64,000 nt of DNA from Microbacterium oryzae (lineage in GTDB: Bacteria; Actinomycetota; Actinomycetes; Actinomycetales; Microbacteriaceae). This document shows positions 3,426 to 34,128 of the stretch, one piece after another; position 1 is the stretch's first letter, and every line of letters begins with the position of its first letter. The notes below the pieces were generated by a model. The model ran no database searches, was not told where the DNA came from, and was given only the letters and a program-made list of their open reading frames with translations. The stretch spans positions 310,001 through 374,000 of the forward strand of contig NZ_CP032550.1 of assembly GCF_009735645.1 (NCBI RefSeq), read 5' to 3'. Position numbers and translations under genes: made by a program.

Positions 3426-5330
3426 TCAGAACCTCTCGAACAGCGCCTGCAGCAGCGGTCCGGCGGTCTCCGCGCCAGACGTGCCGTCCTCCACGAAGAC
3501 GGCGGCGGCGAGGTCGCCGTGCGTTCCCACCATCCAGCTGTGCTTCGGGTACTCGCCATCGCCATCCGGCTCGCCGTACTCGGCCGTGCCCGTCTTCGCT
3601 CCCACCGGCTCGCCGGGGATGCCGGCGAGGAACGTCGCCGAGCCCTCCGTCACCACGGCGCGCATGAGCTCCCGCAGAGCCGAGGCTTCCTCGGGAGCGA
3701 GGGGCTGCGCGGGCTGCGCCGTCGCGTCCGCCTCGGGCTTCGCCGATGCATCCGTGTCGTCGTCGGCGATGAGCTGCGGGGCGACCGTGTGGCCGGCGCC
3801 GATGGAGGCGGCGACCGTGGCCATCCCGAGCGGCGTGGCGAGGATGCGACCCTGTCCGATGAGGTCGGCCGCGCGCTCGGTCTCGCCCTCGGGCTCGGGC
3901 ACCTGACCGAGAGAGGCGGGGTAGCCGAGGTCGGCGTCGGGCGCGAGTCCGAGTGACGCGGCCGCGGCGGCGAGCTCGCCGTCTCCGATGCGGTCGCGCG
4001 CGCCGATCACGGCCGTGTTGCAGGAGTTTGCGATCGCCGTGCGGAAGGTGACGTCGCCGAGCGCCGACGCGGGGTAGTCGTCGTAGTTGCGGAAGGTGAA
4101 GCCGTCGACCTCGAGCGACTCGGGGCACGACAGCACGTCGTCGAGCGACGCGCCCGCGCGGATCAGCGCGAGCGAGGTCACCAGCTTGAAGGTCGACCCC
4201 GGCGGGTACTGCCCGGTCGAGGCGATGTCGAGACCGCCGGCGCCGTTCGCGAGCGCCAGCACCTCTCCGGTCGACGGGCGGATGGTCACGATCGCACTGG
4301 CGGGCGCATCCTCGCCGAGCCCTGCGACGATCTCCTCCGCGGCCGACTGGATGGCCGGATCGAGCGTCAGGGACAGCGGCCGGCCATCCGCGCCGTCGAA
4401 CTCCGCCAGCGTGCGCCGCTCGTCGTCGTCGCCCACGGCCTCGATCGCGATGCTCGGCGTGCCGCGCAGCTGGGCGTCGAACGTCTGCTGCAACCCGGAG
4501 AGCCCGACGACGTCGCCGGCGCGCACCGAGCCATCCGACGCCTCGACGATCTCGGCCGTGGCGTCGCCGACCGCACCGAGCAGCTCGCGCGCGAAGTCGC
4601 GCGTCGGCGCGAGCGGCAGGGTGTCGGGTACCACGATCGCACCGGGGATCTCCAGGAAGTCGGGGGCGACGTGCTGGTCCTCCTCGCCCTCCCGCACGAC
4701 GATCGCCTCGACGAAGGCCTGCGGGCCGGCGCTCTCGGCCGAGGCGCGGAAGGCCGCAGGGTCGATGCCGACGGCGCCGGCGATCCGCTCGGCGGACGCG
4801 CCGACCTCATCCGCCGTGATGCGCGTCCTGTCGAGTCCGTAGCGGCCGACCGGGCGCTCGGCGACGATCGGCTCGGAGCCTTCGCCGAGGATGCCGGCGC
4901 GCTCGCCGAACTCGCGGCTCACCTCGATCCGCTCGCCCGCGGCGAGATCCGGAGCGAGGGCCGCCGGGTCCCACTGCACGACCCACTCGTCCTCACCCTC
5001 CGCGAGCGCCGTGGTCGTGTCGTACGCCCACTCGTGACCCTCGACGTCCCACGTCCAGTGCAGGGCGACCGTTCCCTCATCGCCCTCGCGCTCGACCTCG
5101 TCGGCAGACACCTCGACGTCGTAGTCGGCCAGCGGCGCGACCTGCTCCTCGAACGCGGCTGCCGCCGCGGGGTCGGCGAGGGAGACGCCGCCGAGCGTGT
5201 GCTCGCTCAGCGCCGCGGTCAGATCAGCTGCGGCAGCCTCGGCCTGATCGTCCGCTTGAGAGCACGCGGCGAGGGGGAGGAGAAGGGCGAGGATGGCCGC
5301 GCTGGCGCCGCGCCGGAGCGGGAAGGGCAT
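3426..5330 (-). CDS. lipoprotein penicillin-binding protein with MecA_N-like (NTF2) domain
   Basis: The 634-residue protein starts with a lipoprotein signal (hydrophobic ILALLLPLAAC, Cys at about residue 24). Next come an NTF2-like MecA_N domain (about 30-150), a PBP dimerisation domain (about 160-330) and a transpeptidase domain. Its three active-site motifs are visible: STFK with Ser379 as nucleophile, SCN at 436-438 and KTG at 579-581. It cross-links peptidoglycan outside the membrane; whether it has low beta-lactam affinity like MecA cannot be told. The ATG at 5330 has AAAGGA 7 bases upstream. The barstar-like gene follows 10 bases downstream. Confidence 0.9.
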   Translation of the reverse strand: MPFPLRRGASAAILALLLPLAACSQADDQAEAAAADLTAALSEHTLGGVSLADPAAAAAFEEQVAPLADYDVEVSADEVEREGDEGTVALHWTWDVEGHEWAYDTTTALAEGEDEWVVQWDPAALAPDLAAGERIEVSREFGERAGILGEGSEPIVAERPVGRYGLDRTRITADEVGASAERIAGAVGIDPAAFRASAESAGPQAFVEAIVVREGEEDQHVAPDFLEIPGAIVVPDTLPLAPTRDFARELLGAVGDATAEIVEASDGSVRAGDVVGLSGLQQTFDAQLRGTPSIAIEAVGDDDERRTLAEFDGADGRPLSLTLDPAIQSAAEEIVAGLGEDAPASAIVTIRPSTGEVLALANGAGGLDIASTGQYPPGSTFKLVTSLALIRAGASLDDVLSCPESLEVDGFTFRNYDDYPASALGDVTFRTAIANSCNTAVIGARDRIGDGELAAAAASLGLAPDADLGYPASLGQVPEPEGETERAADLIGQGRILATPLGMATVAASIGAGHTVAPQLIADDDTDASAKPEADATAQPAQPLAPEEASALRELMRAVVTEGSATFLAGIPGEPVGAKTGTAEYGEPDGDGEYPKHSWMVGTHGDLAAAVFVEDGTSGAETAGPLLQALFERF

Positions 5331-5407
5331 GAGCAGGTCCTTTCGGAGGCGACGGTCCTCCGTCATCCTGTCATGTCGGTACGACGCCCGCGCGGGCGGG
5401 GTCGGCG

Positions 5408-6061
5408 TCACACGGGGCGCCCCGCCCGCGACATGGCGTCGGCGAAGCCGTCGAGAAGCAGCTCCAGACCGTACTCGAACTCGGCCGTATCGTCCTGCCC
5501 ATTGAGAGTGGGGCCGATCTCCGTGACGAGAGGGAGGAGCCTGGCGGCACTCAGCTCGTCGATGCTCTCGCGCGCGGGAGGAGTGATGCGCCGCGCCTCC
5601 GCCCCGAAGTAGCCGCCCAGCTCGACGTCGATGGTGCCGAGCGAGTATGCGGCGAGGGCCCGGTAGCAGCGGGCGGTGCTCAGCGCGTCGAAGCCGGCTC
5701 GACGGAAGCAACGGAACCCTGCTTCCACGAAGGCGAGAGCGTCCGGGGTGTGGGGCGGGAACCGGCGGATGAGAGTCGCGGCTCGCGGATGACGCAGCGC
5801 GACGTCGCGCACCGATCGCATGATGAAGCGCATCGCGTCGCGCCAGTGGAGCTCATCGGTCGGAGTCGCGACCTCGGCCAGGAGCAGCTGCGTGACGCCG
5901 TCGAGGAGCGCCTGTTTGTCGGGGAAGTAGGTGTAGATCGACATCGCCGACGAGCCGAGGGTCTGCGCGAGCTTCCGCATGCTCAGCGCGTCCTCGCCCT
6001 CGGCATCGATCACGGCCAGCGCGGCTTCCGCGATGGTCCGTTGCGAGAGCTTCTCCGCCAT
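5408..6061 (-). CDS. TetR family transcriptional regulator
   Basis: The 217-residue protein has an N-terminal TetR helix-turn-helix (about residues 7-50: TIAEAALAVIDAEGEDALSM, then SSAMSIYTYFPDKQALLDGV) and a TetR_C_1-like ligand domain rich in Ala, Leu and Arg. The ATG at 6061 follows GGGGGAGG at about 6 bases. It is transcribed away from the GNAT-ABC-FtsX-MFS genes across a 97-base region packed with GTAC half sites, so it very likely represses that cassette and itself. The inducer is unknown; by analogy it would be a compound exported or modified by the cassette. Confidence 0.9.
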   Translation of the reverse strand: MAEKLSQRTIAEAALAVIDAEGEDALSMRKLAQTLGSSAMSIYTYFPDKQALLDGVTQLLLAEVATPTDELHWRDAMRFIMRSVRDVALRHPRAATLIRRFPPHTPDALAFVEAGFRCFRRAGFDALSTARCYRALAAYSLGTIDVELGGYFGAEARRITPPARESIDELSAARLLPLVTEIGPTLNGQDDTAEFEYGLELLLDGFADAMSRAGRPV

Positions 6062-6081
6062 ATCGACCTCCCCCTTGACAG

Positions 6082-6127
6082 CGTACACCGTACGGATCAC
6101 TATGTACGTCGTACCGTACGCCGTACG
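6082..6127. promoter_or_regulatory. repeated TetR-type operator
   Basis: Three dyads lie between the divergent starts: CGTAC-ACC-GTACG at 6082-6094, GTAC-GTC-GTAC at 6104-6114 and CGTAC-GCC-GTACG at 6115-6127. The two full sites are 33 bases apart, about three helical turns. They overlap the expected promoter zone of both the regulator and the cassette; TTGACA occurs at 6075-6080 and again at 6136-6141. Confidence 0.65.
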
Positions 6128-6158
6128 GCTGCAGATTGACACCGTAAGGGAGCATGTC

Positions 6159-31007: not shown

Positions 31008-31607
31008 GTGGACTTCGCTGCGACCCCCGTGCTCGAGAACGACTTCGTGCGGCTGGAGCCGCTGCGCCCCGCGCACTCCGACGACCTCGCCGCGGCGGTG
31101 GCGGTGGACGACCTCTGGCGCACCTGGTACACGCGCATCCCTGCACCCGAGCGGATGGCCGAGGAGATCGTGCGCCGTCTGGCCGAGCAGGAGGCGGGGC
31201 GGATGGCGCCGTGGGCGATCGTCGACGCCGCCTCAGGTCGGGCGGTGGGGATGACCACGTACCTGCACATCGAGCCGGATCACCGGCGCCTGGAGATCGG
31301 GTCGACGTGGATCGGCACGGCAGCGCAGGGGACCGGCATCAACCCCGCCGCCAAGCTGCTGCTCCTCGAGCGGGCGTTCGACGTGCTCGGCTGCATCTGC
31401 GTGCAGCTCTGCACGCACTGGCACAACCACCAGTCGCGTGCGGCCATCGCCCGGCTCGGCGCGAAGCAGGACGGCGTGCTCCGCAGCCACGCGATCTTCC
31501 CGGACGGCCACGTCCGCGACACCGTGATGTTCTCGATCATCGAGCCGGAGTGGCCCGCCGTGCGCCGGGGTCTCGAGGCGCGTCTGGCGCGGCGGGGCGC
31601 GGCGTGA
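31008..31607 (+). CDS. GNAT family acetyltransferase, RimJ/RimL type
   Basis: The 199-residue protein resembles RimJ/RimL-type acetyltransferases: VLENDFVRLEPLRPAHSDDL at the start, EIGSTWIGTAAQGTGINPAAKLLLL for acetyl-CoA binding (Q-G-T-G instead of R-G-x-G) and THWHNHQSRAAIARLGAKQDGVLRSH. The family acetylates protein N-termini or small amines; the acceptor here is not known. GTG at 31008 is fixed by TAGCGT ending 6 bases upstream. Its stop overlaps the start of a second GNAT gene. Confidence 0.88.
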   Translation: MDFAATPVLENDFVRLEPLRPAHSDDLAAAVAVDDLWRTWYTRIPAPERMAEEIVRRLAEQEAGRMAPWAIVDAASGRAVGMTTYLHIEPDHRRLEIGSTWIGTAAQGTGINPAAKLLLLERAFDVLGCICVQLCTHWHNHQSRAAIARLGAKQDGVLRSHAIFPDGHVRDTVMFSIIEPEWPAVRRGLEARLARRGAA

Positions 31608-32035
31608 CCTCCGACGCCGCCGCGACCACGGCCATCCGCCCCCTCGTCGACGCGGACGTGGACGCCGTCTTCGCGCTGTGGCACGCCGTCGGTCTCACGC
31701 GCCCGTGGAACGACCCGCATGAGGACATCCGGCGAGCCCGCGCCGTGTCGCCCGAGCTCCTGCTCGTCGCGGAGCATGATGGTGCGGTCGTGGGCACGGT
31801 GATGGCGGGCTACGACGGTCACCGCGGCTGGCTCCACTACGTCGCGAGCGCGCGACCCGGTGCCGGGCGCGCCCTCGTGGCGGAGGCGGAGCGGCGCCTC
31901 GTCGCCCTCGGCTGCCCCAAGGTCATGCTCATGGTGCGCTCGGACAACGCCGGCGTCCTCGGCTACTACGACTCCCTCGGCTACGACCGCGACGCGGTCC
32001 TGGTGGCGGGGAAGCGGCTGATCCCCGACGCGTGA
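31604..32035 (+). CDS. GNAT family acetyltransferase, YpeA-like
   Basis: The 143-residue protein shows IRPLVDADVDAVFALWHAVGLTRPWNDPHEDI, VVGTVMAGYDGHRGWLHYVAS and LGCPKVMLMVRSDNAGVLGYYDSLGY, matching YpeA-type acetyltransferases, though the acetyl-CoA loop is shortened (ARPGAGRALVAEAERRL). GTG at 31604 overlaps the upstream GNAT stop, so the two are coupled. The TGA stop at 32033-32035 lies in the outermost bases of the left repeat array of the neighbouring element, so the array's insertion or growth has not cut the gene. Confidence 0.88.
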   Translation: MTSDAAATTAIRPLVDADVDAVFALWHAVGLTRPWNDPHEDIRRARAVSPELLLVAEHDGAVVGTVMAGYDGHRGWLHYVASARPGAGRALVAEAERRLVALGCPKVMLMVRSDNAGVLGYYDSLGYDRDAVLVAGKRLIPDA

Positions 32036-32134
32036 CGAGCGTTCGGAGCACTGGGGCTAGCGCTCGGAGCGCTAGGACTAGCGTCGGGCGGCGAGGCTAG
32101 CGCTCGGAGCGCTAGTCTCGGCGACGAACGCTAG
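32036..32134 (+). repeat. left array of five 19-bp palindromic units
   Basis: Units start at 32036, 32057, 32078, 32097 and 32116. Those at 32057 and 32097 are identical perfect palindromes with a single central G (CTAGCGCTCGGAGCGCTAG). The others are degenerate or keep one half. CTAG, rare elsewhere in this window, occurs six times. Confidence 0.9.
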
Positions 32135-32279
32135 TCGCGTGTCGGTGCGGGGCGTATCGCGACACGTTCGGACATCTCGGCGGCAGCGCGGGAGCCCCAC
32201 GGCGCGTGCACAGCCGCGCCGCGCAGCGTGTCGACGTCCACAGATTCCCTGTCGCGCATGTCGCGGGGGCGCGGCTCGT

Positions 32280-32285
32280 CATGCT
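32280..32285 (+). promoter_or_regulatory. possible -10 box of the AbiEi/DUF559-like gene
   Basis: CATGCT ends 6 bases before ATG 32292, the same spacing as other predicted leaderless genes, though its first base is not T. Confidence 0.4.
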
Positions 32286-32291
32286 CCTCCT

Positions 32292-33242
32292 ATGACGGAG
32301 GAGATGCAGCTGCACCGCACGGGCCGCGATTCGAGCGTCCGGGCGCTTCGACAGGAGCTCGGGCCGCTCGAAGACCTGCGGCGAGGCATGCACGCGTCGA
32401 GTGAGGAATGGCATGTGCTGCCGTCACACGAGCGCTACGCCCTGCGCGTCGCCGCGGCTATCGCGGTGCTGCGCGACCCGATCCTGTGTCTCGAGTCCGC
32501 GGCTGTGGTCTGGGGCCTGCCCGTATTCGGCGAGCCGAACGAAATCCACACGCTGCACGTCGGGCGCGGGCACTCCTACCGCCGGAAGGACGTCTTCGCA
32601 CATACCAGCAGCAGGAGTCGGGATATCGTCCGCATCCGCGGGGTGCGCGTCACGTCTCTTCTCGAGACGACGATCGATCTCGCGCGCGTGATGCCCCTGG
32701 CATTCGCGGTCGCCGTGTTCGACCGAGCCCTTCGGATGGGTCTCCTGGTGGGAGACATCGAGGGCCGAGTCCAGCAGGCCGTCGGGTGCCGCGGGACGCA
32801 AGCGCTGCGGCGGGCGCTGGAGATGTCCGATGTCCGATCGGAGTCGGTCCTCGAGAGCATCAGCCGCGTGGTGATCCATCTCCTGGGGTTCGAGGCACCC
32901 GAGTTGCAGGTCGAGTTCGAGATCGACGGCGAGATCCGCCGGGTCGACGCGTGGTGGCCATCCGTCGGTGTGATCGGCGAAGCGGATGGCAAGGTCAAGT
33001 ACCAGCAGGACGACCCGTCGCTCACGTCCGCGGTCCTCGTCGATGAGCGCCGACGAGAGAAGCAGCTTCAGGTCGCCGCCGGCCGAGTGATCCGCTGGGA
33101 CTGGTCGGACGTCGTGCGCGTGACACCGCTGGAGCGCATTCTGCTCGCGGCCGGCGTGCCGCGTCCGCGCCCAGCCGCGCCCAACATCCACGCGGCGCTG
33201 CGAAATCCGCGTTCCGATCAGCCGCAGCGCCCACGAGGCTAG
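32292..33242 (+). CDS. AbiEi-like / DUF559 (Vsr-like nuclease fold) protein inside repeat element
   Basis: The 316-residue protein has an N-terminal part like actinobacterial AbiEi-family proteins (YALRVAAAIAVLRDPILCLESAAVVWGLPV, then VRVTSLLETTIDLARVMPLAFAVAVFDRAL). The C-terminal part resembles DUF559/Vsr-type nucleases: a strand ending RRVDAWW, then VIGEADGKVKY (E-x-D-G-K, possible PD-(D/E)XK metal site), DERRREKQLQ and RVIRWDWSDV. Full activity is unproven. No AbiEii toxin gene is adjacent. The TAG stop at 33240-33242 lies in the first unit of the right repeat array. Start ATG 32292 is uncertain; ATG 32304 is the alternative. Function is not known. Confidence 0.72.
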   Translation: MTEEMQLHRTGRDSSVRALRQELGPLEDLRRGMHASSEEWHVLPSHERYALRVAAAIAVLRDPILCLESAAVVWGLPVFGEPNEIHTLHVGRGHSYRRKDVFAHTSSRSRDIVRIRGVRVTSLLETTIDLARVMPLAFAVAVFDRALRMGLLVGDIEGRVQQAVGCRGTQALRRALEMSDVRSESVLESISRVVIHLLGFEAPELQVEFEIDGEIRRVDAWWPSVGVIGEADGKVKYQQDDPSLTSAVLVDERRREKQLQVAAGRVIRWDWSDVVRVTPLERILLAAGVPRPRPAAPNIHAALRNPRSDQPQRPRG

Positions 33243-33337
33243 CGCTCGTCGTCGAGGCTAGCGTTCCGAGCGCTAGCTTGAGCGACCAGCACTAGCCCTA
33301 GCGTTCCGAACGCTAGCCCTGGTGCTCCGAGCGCTAG
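33239..33337 (-). repeat. right array of five 19-bp palindromic units, inverted copy
   Basis: Units start at 33239, 33258, 33277, 33298 and 33319. The unit at 33298 is a perfect palindrome (CTAGCGTTCCGAACGCTAG) with central C, where the left array has central G. CTAG occurs seven times. It also lies between convergent genes and may act as a terminator. Confidence 0.9.
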
Positions 33338-33378
33338 TCACCGGAATCCACCGGCCCGGGGGGCCCGCCCCGAGCGCC

Positions 33379-34128
33379 TCACGGGAGGAACGGGGCCACC
33401 AGCGGATAGCCCACGAATGCGAAGACGTCGATCAGCGCGTGGGCGAGCACCAGCGGCATCACGCGTCCCCAGCGGCGGTAGCACCAGCCGAACACGACGC
33501 CCATCGCGAAGTTCCCGACGATCGCGCCGAAGCCCTGGTACGCGTGATACGCCGCGCGCAGGCCCGCGACCGCGAGGATGATCGTCCACGGCCGCCATCC
33601 GATGCGGCCGAGCCGGTCGAAGAGGTAGCCGCCGAGGATCACCTCCTCGAGGAGTCCCGCGCGCAGGGCCGACAGCACGAGCACGGGCACGAGCCACGCG
33701 TCGATCCCCGACGACGCCTGCACGTCGACGTTGAGTCCGAGCAGGCGCGCTCCGACGTAGAGCGCGATCCCCGGCACGCCGATGACGACCAGCAGGATGG
33801 CCGCTCGGCCGAGATCCCGAGGGAGGGAACGGAGATCCAGGCCGATGCGCCGGAGCGCGCTGCGACCGGGCTCCCAGAGCAGGTAGACCACCAGCGCGAC
33901 GAGGCAGAGGTCGAACCCGATGTCGAGGAGACGGTAGACGACGTCCCACACCGGCTCCTCCGCGCGCGACGGATTGAGCGCCGCGGACTGCTCGGACAGC
34001 GCCTCCGGGCGCAGCAGCGCGCGCACGAGCGAGAGCACGGCGTAGAGCGCGGACTGCCCGAGCGAGAGCGCGAGCACGATCGCCACCTCCCACGCGAATC
34101 GGCGACGAGTGGGGGAGGGGACGCTCAC
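33379..34128 (-). CDS. CPBP (Abi/CAAX-like) family intramembrane protein, altered motif 1
   Basis: The 249-residue protein has about seven membrane helices and the CPBP layout: LLEEVILGGYLFDRLG as motif 1, AAYHAYQGFGAIVGNFAMGVVFGWCY as motif 2 and LVLAHALIDVFAFVGYP as motif 3. The two motif-1 glutamates and the histidines of motifs 2 and 3 are present, but the usual Arg in EExxxR is Gly here, so protease activity may be changed. CPBP proteins process prenylated peptides or give bacteriocin immunity. GTG at 34128 lies 6 bases after CAGGCT. Confidence 0.82.
   Translation of the reverse strand: MSVPSPTRRRFAWEVAIVLALSLGQSALYAVLSLVRALLRPEALSEQSAALNPSRAEEPVWDVVYRLLDIGFDLCLVALVVYLLWEPGRSALRRIGLDLRSLPRDLGRAAILLVVIGVPGIALYVGARLLGLNVDVQASSGIDAWLVPVLVLSALRAGLLEEVILGGYLFDRLGRIGWRPWTIILAVAGLRAAYHAYQGFGAIVGNFAMGVVFGWCYRRWGRVMPLVLAHALIDVFAFVGYPLVAPFLP

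Follow-up and report, generated by a model that had tools for sequence, protein, structure and literature searches.

A dispersed palindromic repeat family and a candidate cognate nuclease in Microbacterium oryzae

A single gene is found between two inverted arrays of short palindromes in the 64,000-nucleotide stretch of Microbacterium oryzae DNA that was analysed here (the window). This locus raises the question of whether the gene and the repeats belong together and, if so, what kind of element they form. The original prediction, made from the letters of the window, proposed a REP-like element, with a DUF559-type protein possibly acting on its palindromes.

The palindromic arrays and the gene between them

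The left element (32036 to 32134, plus strand) is 99 bp long and is built of units in the order P-P-A-P-A', where P is a 19-bp palindrome (CTAGYGYTCSGARCRCTAG) as derived from an alignment of the copies of this repeat, family 1, in the genome. The first P unit (32036-32054) was recognized in the copy alignment as a degenerate 19-bp palindrome and the second (32057-32075; CTAGCGCTCGGAGCGCTAG) was located by pattern search. These are followed by the A-P-A' core (32078-32134; A 32078-32096, P 32097-32115 and A' 32116-32134), which was delimited by a repeat-finder pair, the copy alignment and a core model (R2). The right element (33239 to 33337, minus strand) belongs to the same family and has the opposite orientation, with its core at 33239-33295 and the two further P units at 33298-33316 and 33319-33337. 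The scores of the left and right elements under the covariance model R1 (105.4 bits, E 2e-17 and 97.4 bits, E 5.6e-16 respectively) are not independent, as both were among the 12 copies used to build the model.

Each array had been described as five 19-bp palindromes. This holds for the three P units but not for A and A', whose sequences are mutually complementary, with the central P between them, and thereby form an imperfect palindrome of 57 nt. The unit-by-unit matches between the two arrays (16, 18, 11, 17 and 15 of 19), the overall match of 80/99 and the outer GTGA/TCAC were all reproduced. That the right array is an inverted copy of the left was also the outcome of an independent repeat finder, which returned one inverted pair (32032-32141 and 33232-33341; 110 nt, 81% complementary). 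With up to three mismatches, the 19-mer gave 10 strand-matches in the window, none of them outside the arrays, whereas 100 shuffles averaged 0.07. No covariation above shuffles was observed among the element copies of the M. oryzae genome (G000) and the signal was weak once the copies of a related genome, G076, were added; the reading as an RNA element was set aside.

The enclosed gene, which we call NUC1 (32292-33242, plus strand), encodes 316 residues and was defined from its open reading frame, its database form, its relatives and a structure comparison. Its start is most likely the ATG at 32292, as in the protein database entry (P0001). The product is predicted to consist of an AbiEi-like part (residues ~2-180) and a domain of the Vsr/homing-endonuclease fold (residues ~182-290) with a predicted active site formed by E188, D219, E230, D232 and K236. 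The acidic residues of this site are kept in all 77 aligned family members. The N-terminal half is predicted to have the AbiEi fold, and the C-terminal domain the Vsr-type fold with a conserved acidic/lysine site. The assignment of both parts comes from a second structural aligner, with an rmsd of 6.9 for the AbiEi match, and Foldseek gave no structural match at E 1e-3 or better. Searches by sequence found no match to the NUC1 product in Pfam and none to P0001 in NCBIfam, where one of 30 family members weakly matches a DUF559 model; the single PDB match (E 0.76) was taken as meaningless.

The first CTAG of the right element contains the stop codon of NUC1 (TAG, 33240-33242). A relative with 85% identity (P0002) has the same C-terminal tail as NUC1 while a relative with 64% identity (P0003) stops a few residues earlier; the right element was therefore probably the source of the present stop codon. 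On the other side, the gene for a GNAT acetyltransferase (31604-32035, plus strand) has a stop codon that abuts the left element, and a CAAX protease gene (Rce1-like/CPBP; 33379-34128, minus strand) is convergent with NUC1. The GNAT gene is kept as a neighbour in G076 and G026, and the CAAX protease gene in G076, G026, G015, G163, G018 and G034.

Dispersal and turnover of the repeat

The composite element was found at 13 sites in the M. oryzae genome with R1 (12 copies), which provides the dispersal expected of a REP-like element. The pair in the window is the only one among the 13 sites that encloses a gene. According to ORF prediction the sites lie outside genes, the one exception being the overlap with the NUC1 stop codon; seven are flanked by convergent genes, six by tandem genes and none by divergent genes, if an IS that has inserted next to one copy is disregarded. 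The left-right identity of 0.81 is unexceptional for the family, where the median over all pairs of the 12 copies is 0.76, and the left array is nearer to the copies at 1308114 (0.85), 2629826 (0.84) and 2466269 (0.83) than to the right array.

Simpler searches gave a graded picture. With one mismatch, an IUPAC pattern of P has 22 matches per strand in this genome against none for the control, and is absent from the other 57 of the 58 genomes scanned. With three mismatches about ten clusters were observed, but the totals of 29 and 32 matches barely exceed the 24 and 23 of the reversed control and the scattered matches are background; therefore the case for family 1 rests on the clusters, the stricter pattern and R1. 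The exact P consensus occurs in two of 366 genomes of the genus, 14 times in M. oryzae and once in G268, where the palindrome (L049 1500-1518) stands alone without an array. A pattern scan of named genomes gave two isolated matches which were taken for chance. R1 found no element in 33 other relatives, and the DNA of the block has no match among plasmid and phage records. The core model R2 has matches in 25 of the 366 genomes, with no more than 14 candidates scored per genome, and a nuclease relative was found inside three of the 30 R2 loci examined (G059, G163 and G015).

Genome G076 keeps the gene order NUDIX, GNAT, GNAT, nuclease (62% identical to NUC1) and CAAX protease, and has an A-P-A' element at both of the places that correspond to the arrays of the window. 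It has 14 element sites. By blastn of the flanks (1e-8), three are common to the 13 sites of M. oryzae, namely the two flanking the nuclease and one other; 11 are not shared, and one site of G076 has a matching flank on one side only. Element sites have thus turned over between the two genomes, whereas the pair around the nuclease was retained.

Flank repeats across the nuclease family

Other members of the gene family were examined by comparing 700 bp before each nuclease gene with 650 bp after it, a score of at least 24 being taken as positive; this threshold was fixed after the first results and then left unchanged for the further loci and for 173 controls. A repeat shared by both sides was found in 63 of 74 loci from 42 genomes, in a statistic that counts related loci separately and uses script-chosen start codons, and 59 of the 74 score at least 30. 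The remaining 11 loci showed no shared flank repeat at the threshold of 24. As controls we used predicted genes of 200-450 aa from 20 arbitrary stretches of 20 of the same genomes, of which 1/173 reaches 24 and 0/173 reach 30. A second set of 28 GNAT-gene loci showed no left/right sharing either (maximum 21.4), a 29th (L094) being too short.

The first-tier loci are positive in 27 of 33 cases and the further loci in 36 of 41. The latter were chosen as 40 of the matches listed, roughly from the top, together with two M. oryzae paralogs, and one of these 42 (L227) was dropped because it ends too near a contig edge; loci shorter than 3,700 bases had been omitted from the first comparison. Four of the 74 were selected because their element or synteny was already known, and without them the count is 59/70. 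Positives make up 52/61 loci in the host's own family and 11/13 in eight other families of the order, one of which (f4, a single locus) is negative. The 63 positives represent 39 repeat clusters, and at least one positive occurs in 21 of the 25 protein clusters. The association of flank repeats with this gene family is thus, with hardly any doubt, a general one, and the suggestion that DUF559/AbiEi-type genes would be found between arrays elsewhere has been borne out.

Measured as medians, the left element ends 113 bp before the start codon and the right element begins 10 bp after the stop codon; the span is 1303 bp. The right-side copy begins within -80 to +100 of the stop codon in 54 of the 63 loci and includes this codon in 22. 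Inverted copies scored above direct ones in 29/63, and the orientation is often ambiguous as most of the repeats are palindromic. Two loci (L241 and L262) depart from simple palindromes: on either side the half-site is repeated in direct tandem (4-5 copies), and the two sides are inverted relative to each other.

Further members of the family have neighbours in common with NUC1. In G015, G163, G018 and G034 the same two genes, CAAX protease and gcvP, enclose a relative (34-37% identical); the one in G015 is flanked by palindromes of another sequence and its stop codon is also inside one of them. In G026 a 39% identical relative (L091 1975-2778) has the same two neighbours as NUC1, GNAT and CAAX protease, but the opposite orientation, and it is adjoined by a different hairpin (TTCATTTCTGGCACATCTCCGG and its complement). 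This orientation hints at inversion of the gene between arrays, yet no shared flank repeat was found at this locus (score 15). G361 lacks the nuclease gene, and there an unrelated hairpin (GTCCGCAAGTCTTC..., L096 1920-1990) comes after the GNAT gene, with gcvP beyond it.

M. oryzae itself has two more genes of the family, 38% and 32% identical to NUC1, and no near-identical second copy. One (L081, C1:871267-872283) lies between RuvC and GatB genes and has a flank score of 33 at unusual distances. The other (L082, C1:2844705-2845592, 32% identical) adjoins genes for a YqaJ exonuclease and ribosomal protein L10. No AbiEii toxin and no intron, intein or mismatch-repair context was observed among the neighbours of the three nuclease genes (GNAT, CAAX protease, YqaJ, ribosomal L10, RuvC and GatB).

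The flank repeat was found to be dispersed in its host in seven of eight tests, with M. oryzae and G076 having one family in two related versions. Site counts were obtained by similarity search over a capped number of candidates and are to be read as lower bounds. As an example, the flank repeat of G007 has at least 66 strand matches at no fewer than 33 sites in that genome and at least 87 strand matches in G006, which has the same repeat type; it was found 11 times in G016, six times in G020 and in none of the other 16 of 20 genomes. Similarly, the repeat of G013 occurs at 18 sites in its own genome, at five in G018 (same type) and at two weak ones in G025, and in none of the other 17 of 20. 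The repeat of L082 occupies about 22 sites in M. oryzae, including one on each side of the gene, and gave only short matches (E 0.001-0.009) in four of 19 other genomes.

Outside the order, a relative is encoded in three of 72,556 plasmid records (E 1e-8), two from Tsukamurella tyrosinosolvens and one from Collinsella aerofaciens, with chromosomal-type genes nearby. These records (NZ_LR134465.1, NZ_LR134451.1 and NZ_OY725717.1) are labelled as plasmids, carry rpmG, hadA, tatB and glutamate synthase, and resemble pieces of chromosome. No relative was found in 50,697 phage records (E 1e-5), and a plasmid search with the more distant relative P0026 gave no match at E 1e-15. All three loci have shared flank repeats (scores 78, 54 and 58, with neighbouring genes at 13-23). 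The Collinsella repeat is found at 21 places in its 900-kb record and in none of the other records, and one Tsukamurella repeat at 10 places in five Tsukamurella records, apparently of one strain, while the other is confined to its two flanks and is the non-dispersed exception among the eight tests.

The sequence of the repeat changes with that of the protein. The flank elements of two loci are alike in 7/7 pairs with a protein score ratio above 0.7, in 28% of 40 pairs at 0.5-0.7, in 8% of 63 at 0.4-0.5, in about 1% of 202 at 0.3-0.4 and in less than 1% below; among the four distant exceptions listed (ratio below 0.3), three involve L240, where a long aligned flank overlaps the gene start. Paralogs of one genome share a repeat in none of 32 pairs (median score 10.3). 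By contrast, G025 and G031 contain two nuclease types each and their repeats match by type across the genomes (58 and 58), and the same applies to G029 and G032 (25 and 35). Arrays that were widespread with no link to such genes would have spoken against the original prediction. Solo copies are indeed common, yet the repeat type follows the nuclease lineage, and the link is further supported by the unlike paralogs and by the second M. oryzae nuclease having a dispersed family of its own.

Conserved flanking proteins (score at least 600) were observed in 44/46 cross-genome pairs with a protein ratio of 0.5 or more, and part of the co-divergence is therefore shared descent. The left and right elements of one locus match with a median score of 44, whereas L020 and L026, with a protein ratio of 0.59 and conserved flanking proteins, have an element score of 12. 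Such a match within the locus together with a difference between species at the same locus points to more than descent alone. Repeat and enzyme co-diverge in this comparison, with a contribution from shared descent at syntenic loci.

A cognate nuclease or other readings

With a probability of roughly two in three, we read the block as a REP-like repeat family with its cognate nuclease, organized like the RAYT/REP systems around an unrelated enzyme, in which the protein would bind half-sites and its nuclease domain would initiate copying or gene conversion of the palindrome. The observations behind this reading are the enclosure of the gene by inverted copies, the recurrence of that arrangement with different repeats, the match between repeat and lineage and the conservation of the predicted nuclease residues. 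In such a mechanism the AbiEi-like part would read a half-site of ~10-13 nt that recurs within each element (units ~19-21 nt apart in M. oryzae), and the Vsr/homing-endonuclease-like domain would nick or cut at or near the palindrome. Repair of the break from another copy could then spread new copies and homogenize old ones. The copies flanking the gene may be held as a matched pair, either for autoregulation or as reference copies, so that both flanks would change together between species while the gene and its neighbours stay in place. Passages of PMC3985639 describe AbiEi as binding inverted repeats at its own promoter, which makes sequence-specific reading of the palindrome plausible.

The strongest alternative is an AbiEi-type autoregulator for which the palindromes beside the gene would be operators and the dispersed copies a regulon or chromosome-organizing sites, with the nuclease domain serving another task, e.g. 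defence. We regard it as unlikely. The N-terminal half of NUC1 does resemble the AbiEi of type IV AbiE toxin-antitoxin systems, but NUC1 differs in its fused nuclease domain, in repeats that stand on both sides of the gene and across the genome, and in having no AbiEii beside the M. oryzae genes. Operators would leave the matched copy at the stop codon unexplained, and the family-1 sites, which differ between species, are found downstream of stop codons and not at divergent promoters.

Still less probable is a conventional transposon, with the nuclease as transposase, the palindromes as its ends and the solo palindromes as MITE-like derivatives moved in trans. A near-identical second unit is lacking in M. 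oryzae, the loci are mostly syntenic between species and the three genes stand beside such genes as those for ribosomal L10, RuvC and GatB. The scarcity of relatives in plasmid records and their absence from the phage records also argue against it.

It is more doubtful again that the palindromes are passive terminators or hairpins which spread by a mechanism of their own and between which nuclease genes settle, e.g. as homing-type genes. Hairpins are common after stop codons, where the family-1 sites lie, and the NUC1 domain resembles a homing endonuclease. On the other hand, passive repeats would not be expected to track the protein, with paralogs unlike within a genome and counterparts alike across genomes, and control genes of the same genomes are so flanked in a single case. 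NUC1 differs from Vsr/EDxHD nucleases, the homing endonuclease I-Bth0305I and DUF559/MTES_1575 in being a free-standing chromosomal gene tied to dispersed palindromes.

The chance landing of two copies of an abundant repeat around an unrelated gene, first suggested by the solo copies and by how rarely the exact motif occurs elsewhere, and compatible with left and right copies that resemble each other no more than other family members do, has a negligible probability given the recurrence at other nuclease loci, each with its own flank repeat, and was dropped once the enclosing pair was also seen in G076, where most sites are unshared.

The cognate-nuclease reading has its closest parallel in RAYTs. 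Passages of PMC2817692 and PMC3116915 describe a RAYT gene between two REPs in inverted orientation, with REPs dispersed in the genome and gene and REP co-diverging. In parts of PMC3116915, genomes are reported to have several distinct single-copy RAYT genes with their own REP each (in SBW25 a different REPIN group beside each), and inheritance is said to be largely vertical at the species level. As far as these descriptions go, the likeness extends to a gene between inverted repeats, dispersed copies, co-divergence and distinct gene-repeat pairs per genome. The difference is in the enzyme, as RAYTs are HUH tyrosine transposases whereas an AbiEi-like protein with a Vsr-fold nuclease is predicted here, and in the hosts, those found here for the present family being Actinomycetota. 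The parallel with an unrelated protein, drawn at the outset, stands: the organization is the same and the Y1_Tnp model (PF01797) has no match in M. oryzae while 5 of 14 control genomes match, so that no RAYT was found in this genome. GTAG, the head of RAYT-associated repeats, is present in 0/12 family-1 copies on either strand. CGTC-tagged REPs offer another comparison; in passages of PMC3733652 they are dispersed palindromes without an associated RAYT and, according to the authors, apparently without a dedicated transposase, and they differ from family 1 in repeat sequence. In the open-access literature, as far as titles, abstract openings and the matches listed extend, no link of DUF559 or AbiEi genes to REP-like repeats was found.

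Somewhat less firmly, we lean towards the wider view that many orphan 'AbiEi antitoxin / DUF559' genes of Actinomycetota are REP-associated nucleases rather than antitoxins. They would form an independently evolved counterpart of RAYTs with rapidly changing specificity, each spreading and homogenizing its own palindrome, with a new palindrome per lineage. In the parts of the cited literature that bear on this point, RAYTs are the one kind of enzyme linked to REP families. An unrelated nuclease organized in the same way would have arrived there by convergence, and comparing the two could show which features a REP system cannot do without. Many actinobacterial genes labelled hypothetical or AbiEi-family antitoxin would then gain a role open to testing, species-specific palindromes in GC-rich genomes would be accounted for, and a recognition code could be derived from dozens of natural protein-palindrome pairs.

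A further observation concerns an insertion sequence of the rve/IS481 type (Pfam; L009 ~5042-6150, G000:C1:1265041-1266149), which is inserted at a CTAG beside one element of M. oryzae. An element at a contig end of G076 (L114 1-98, G076:C10) is bordered by the same end of the IS, and the palindromes may therefore be targets of this IS.
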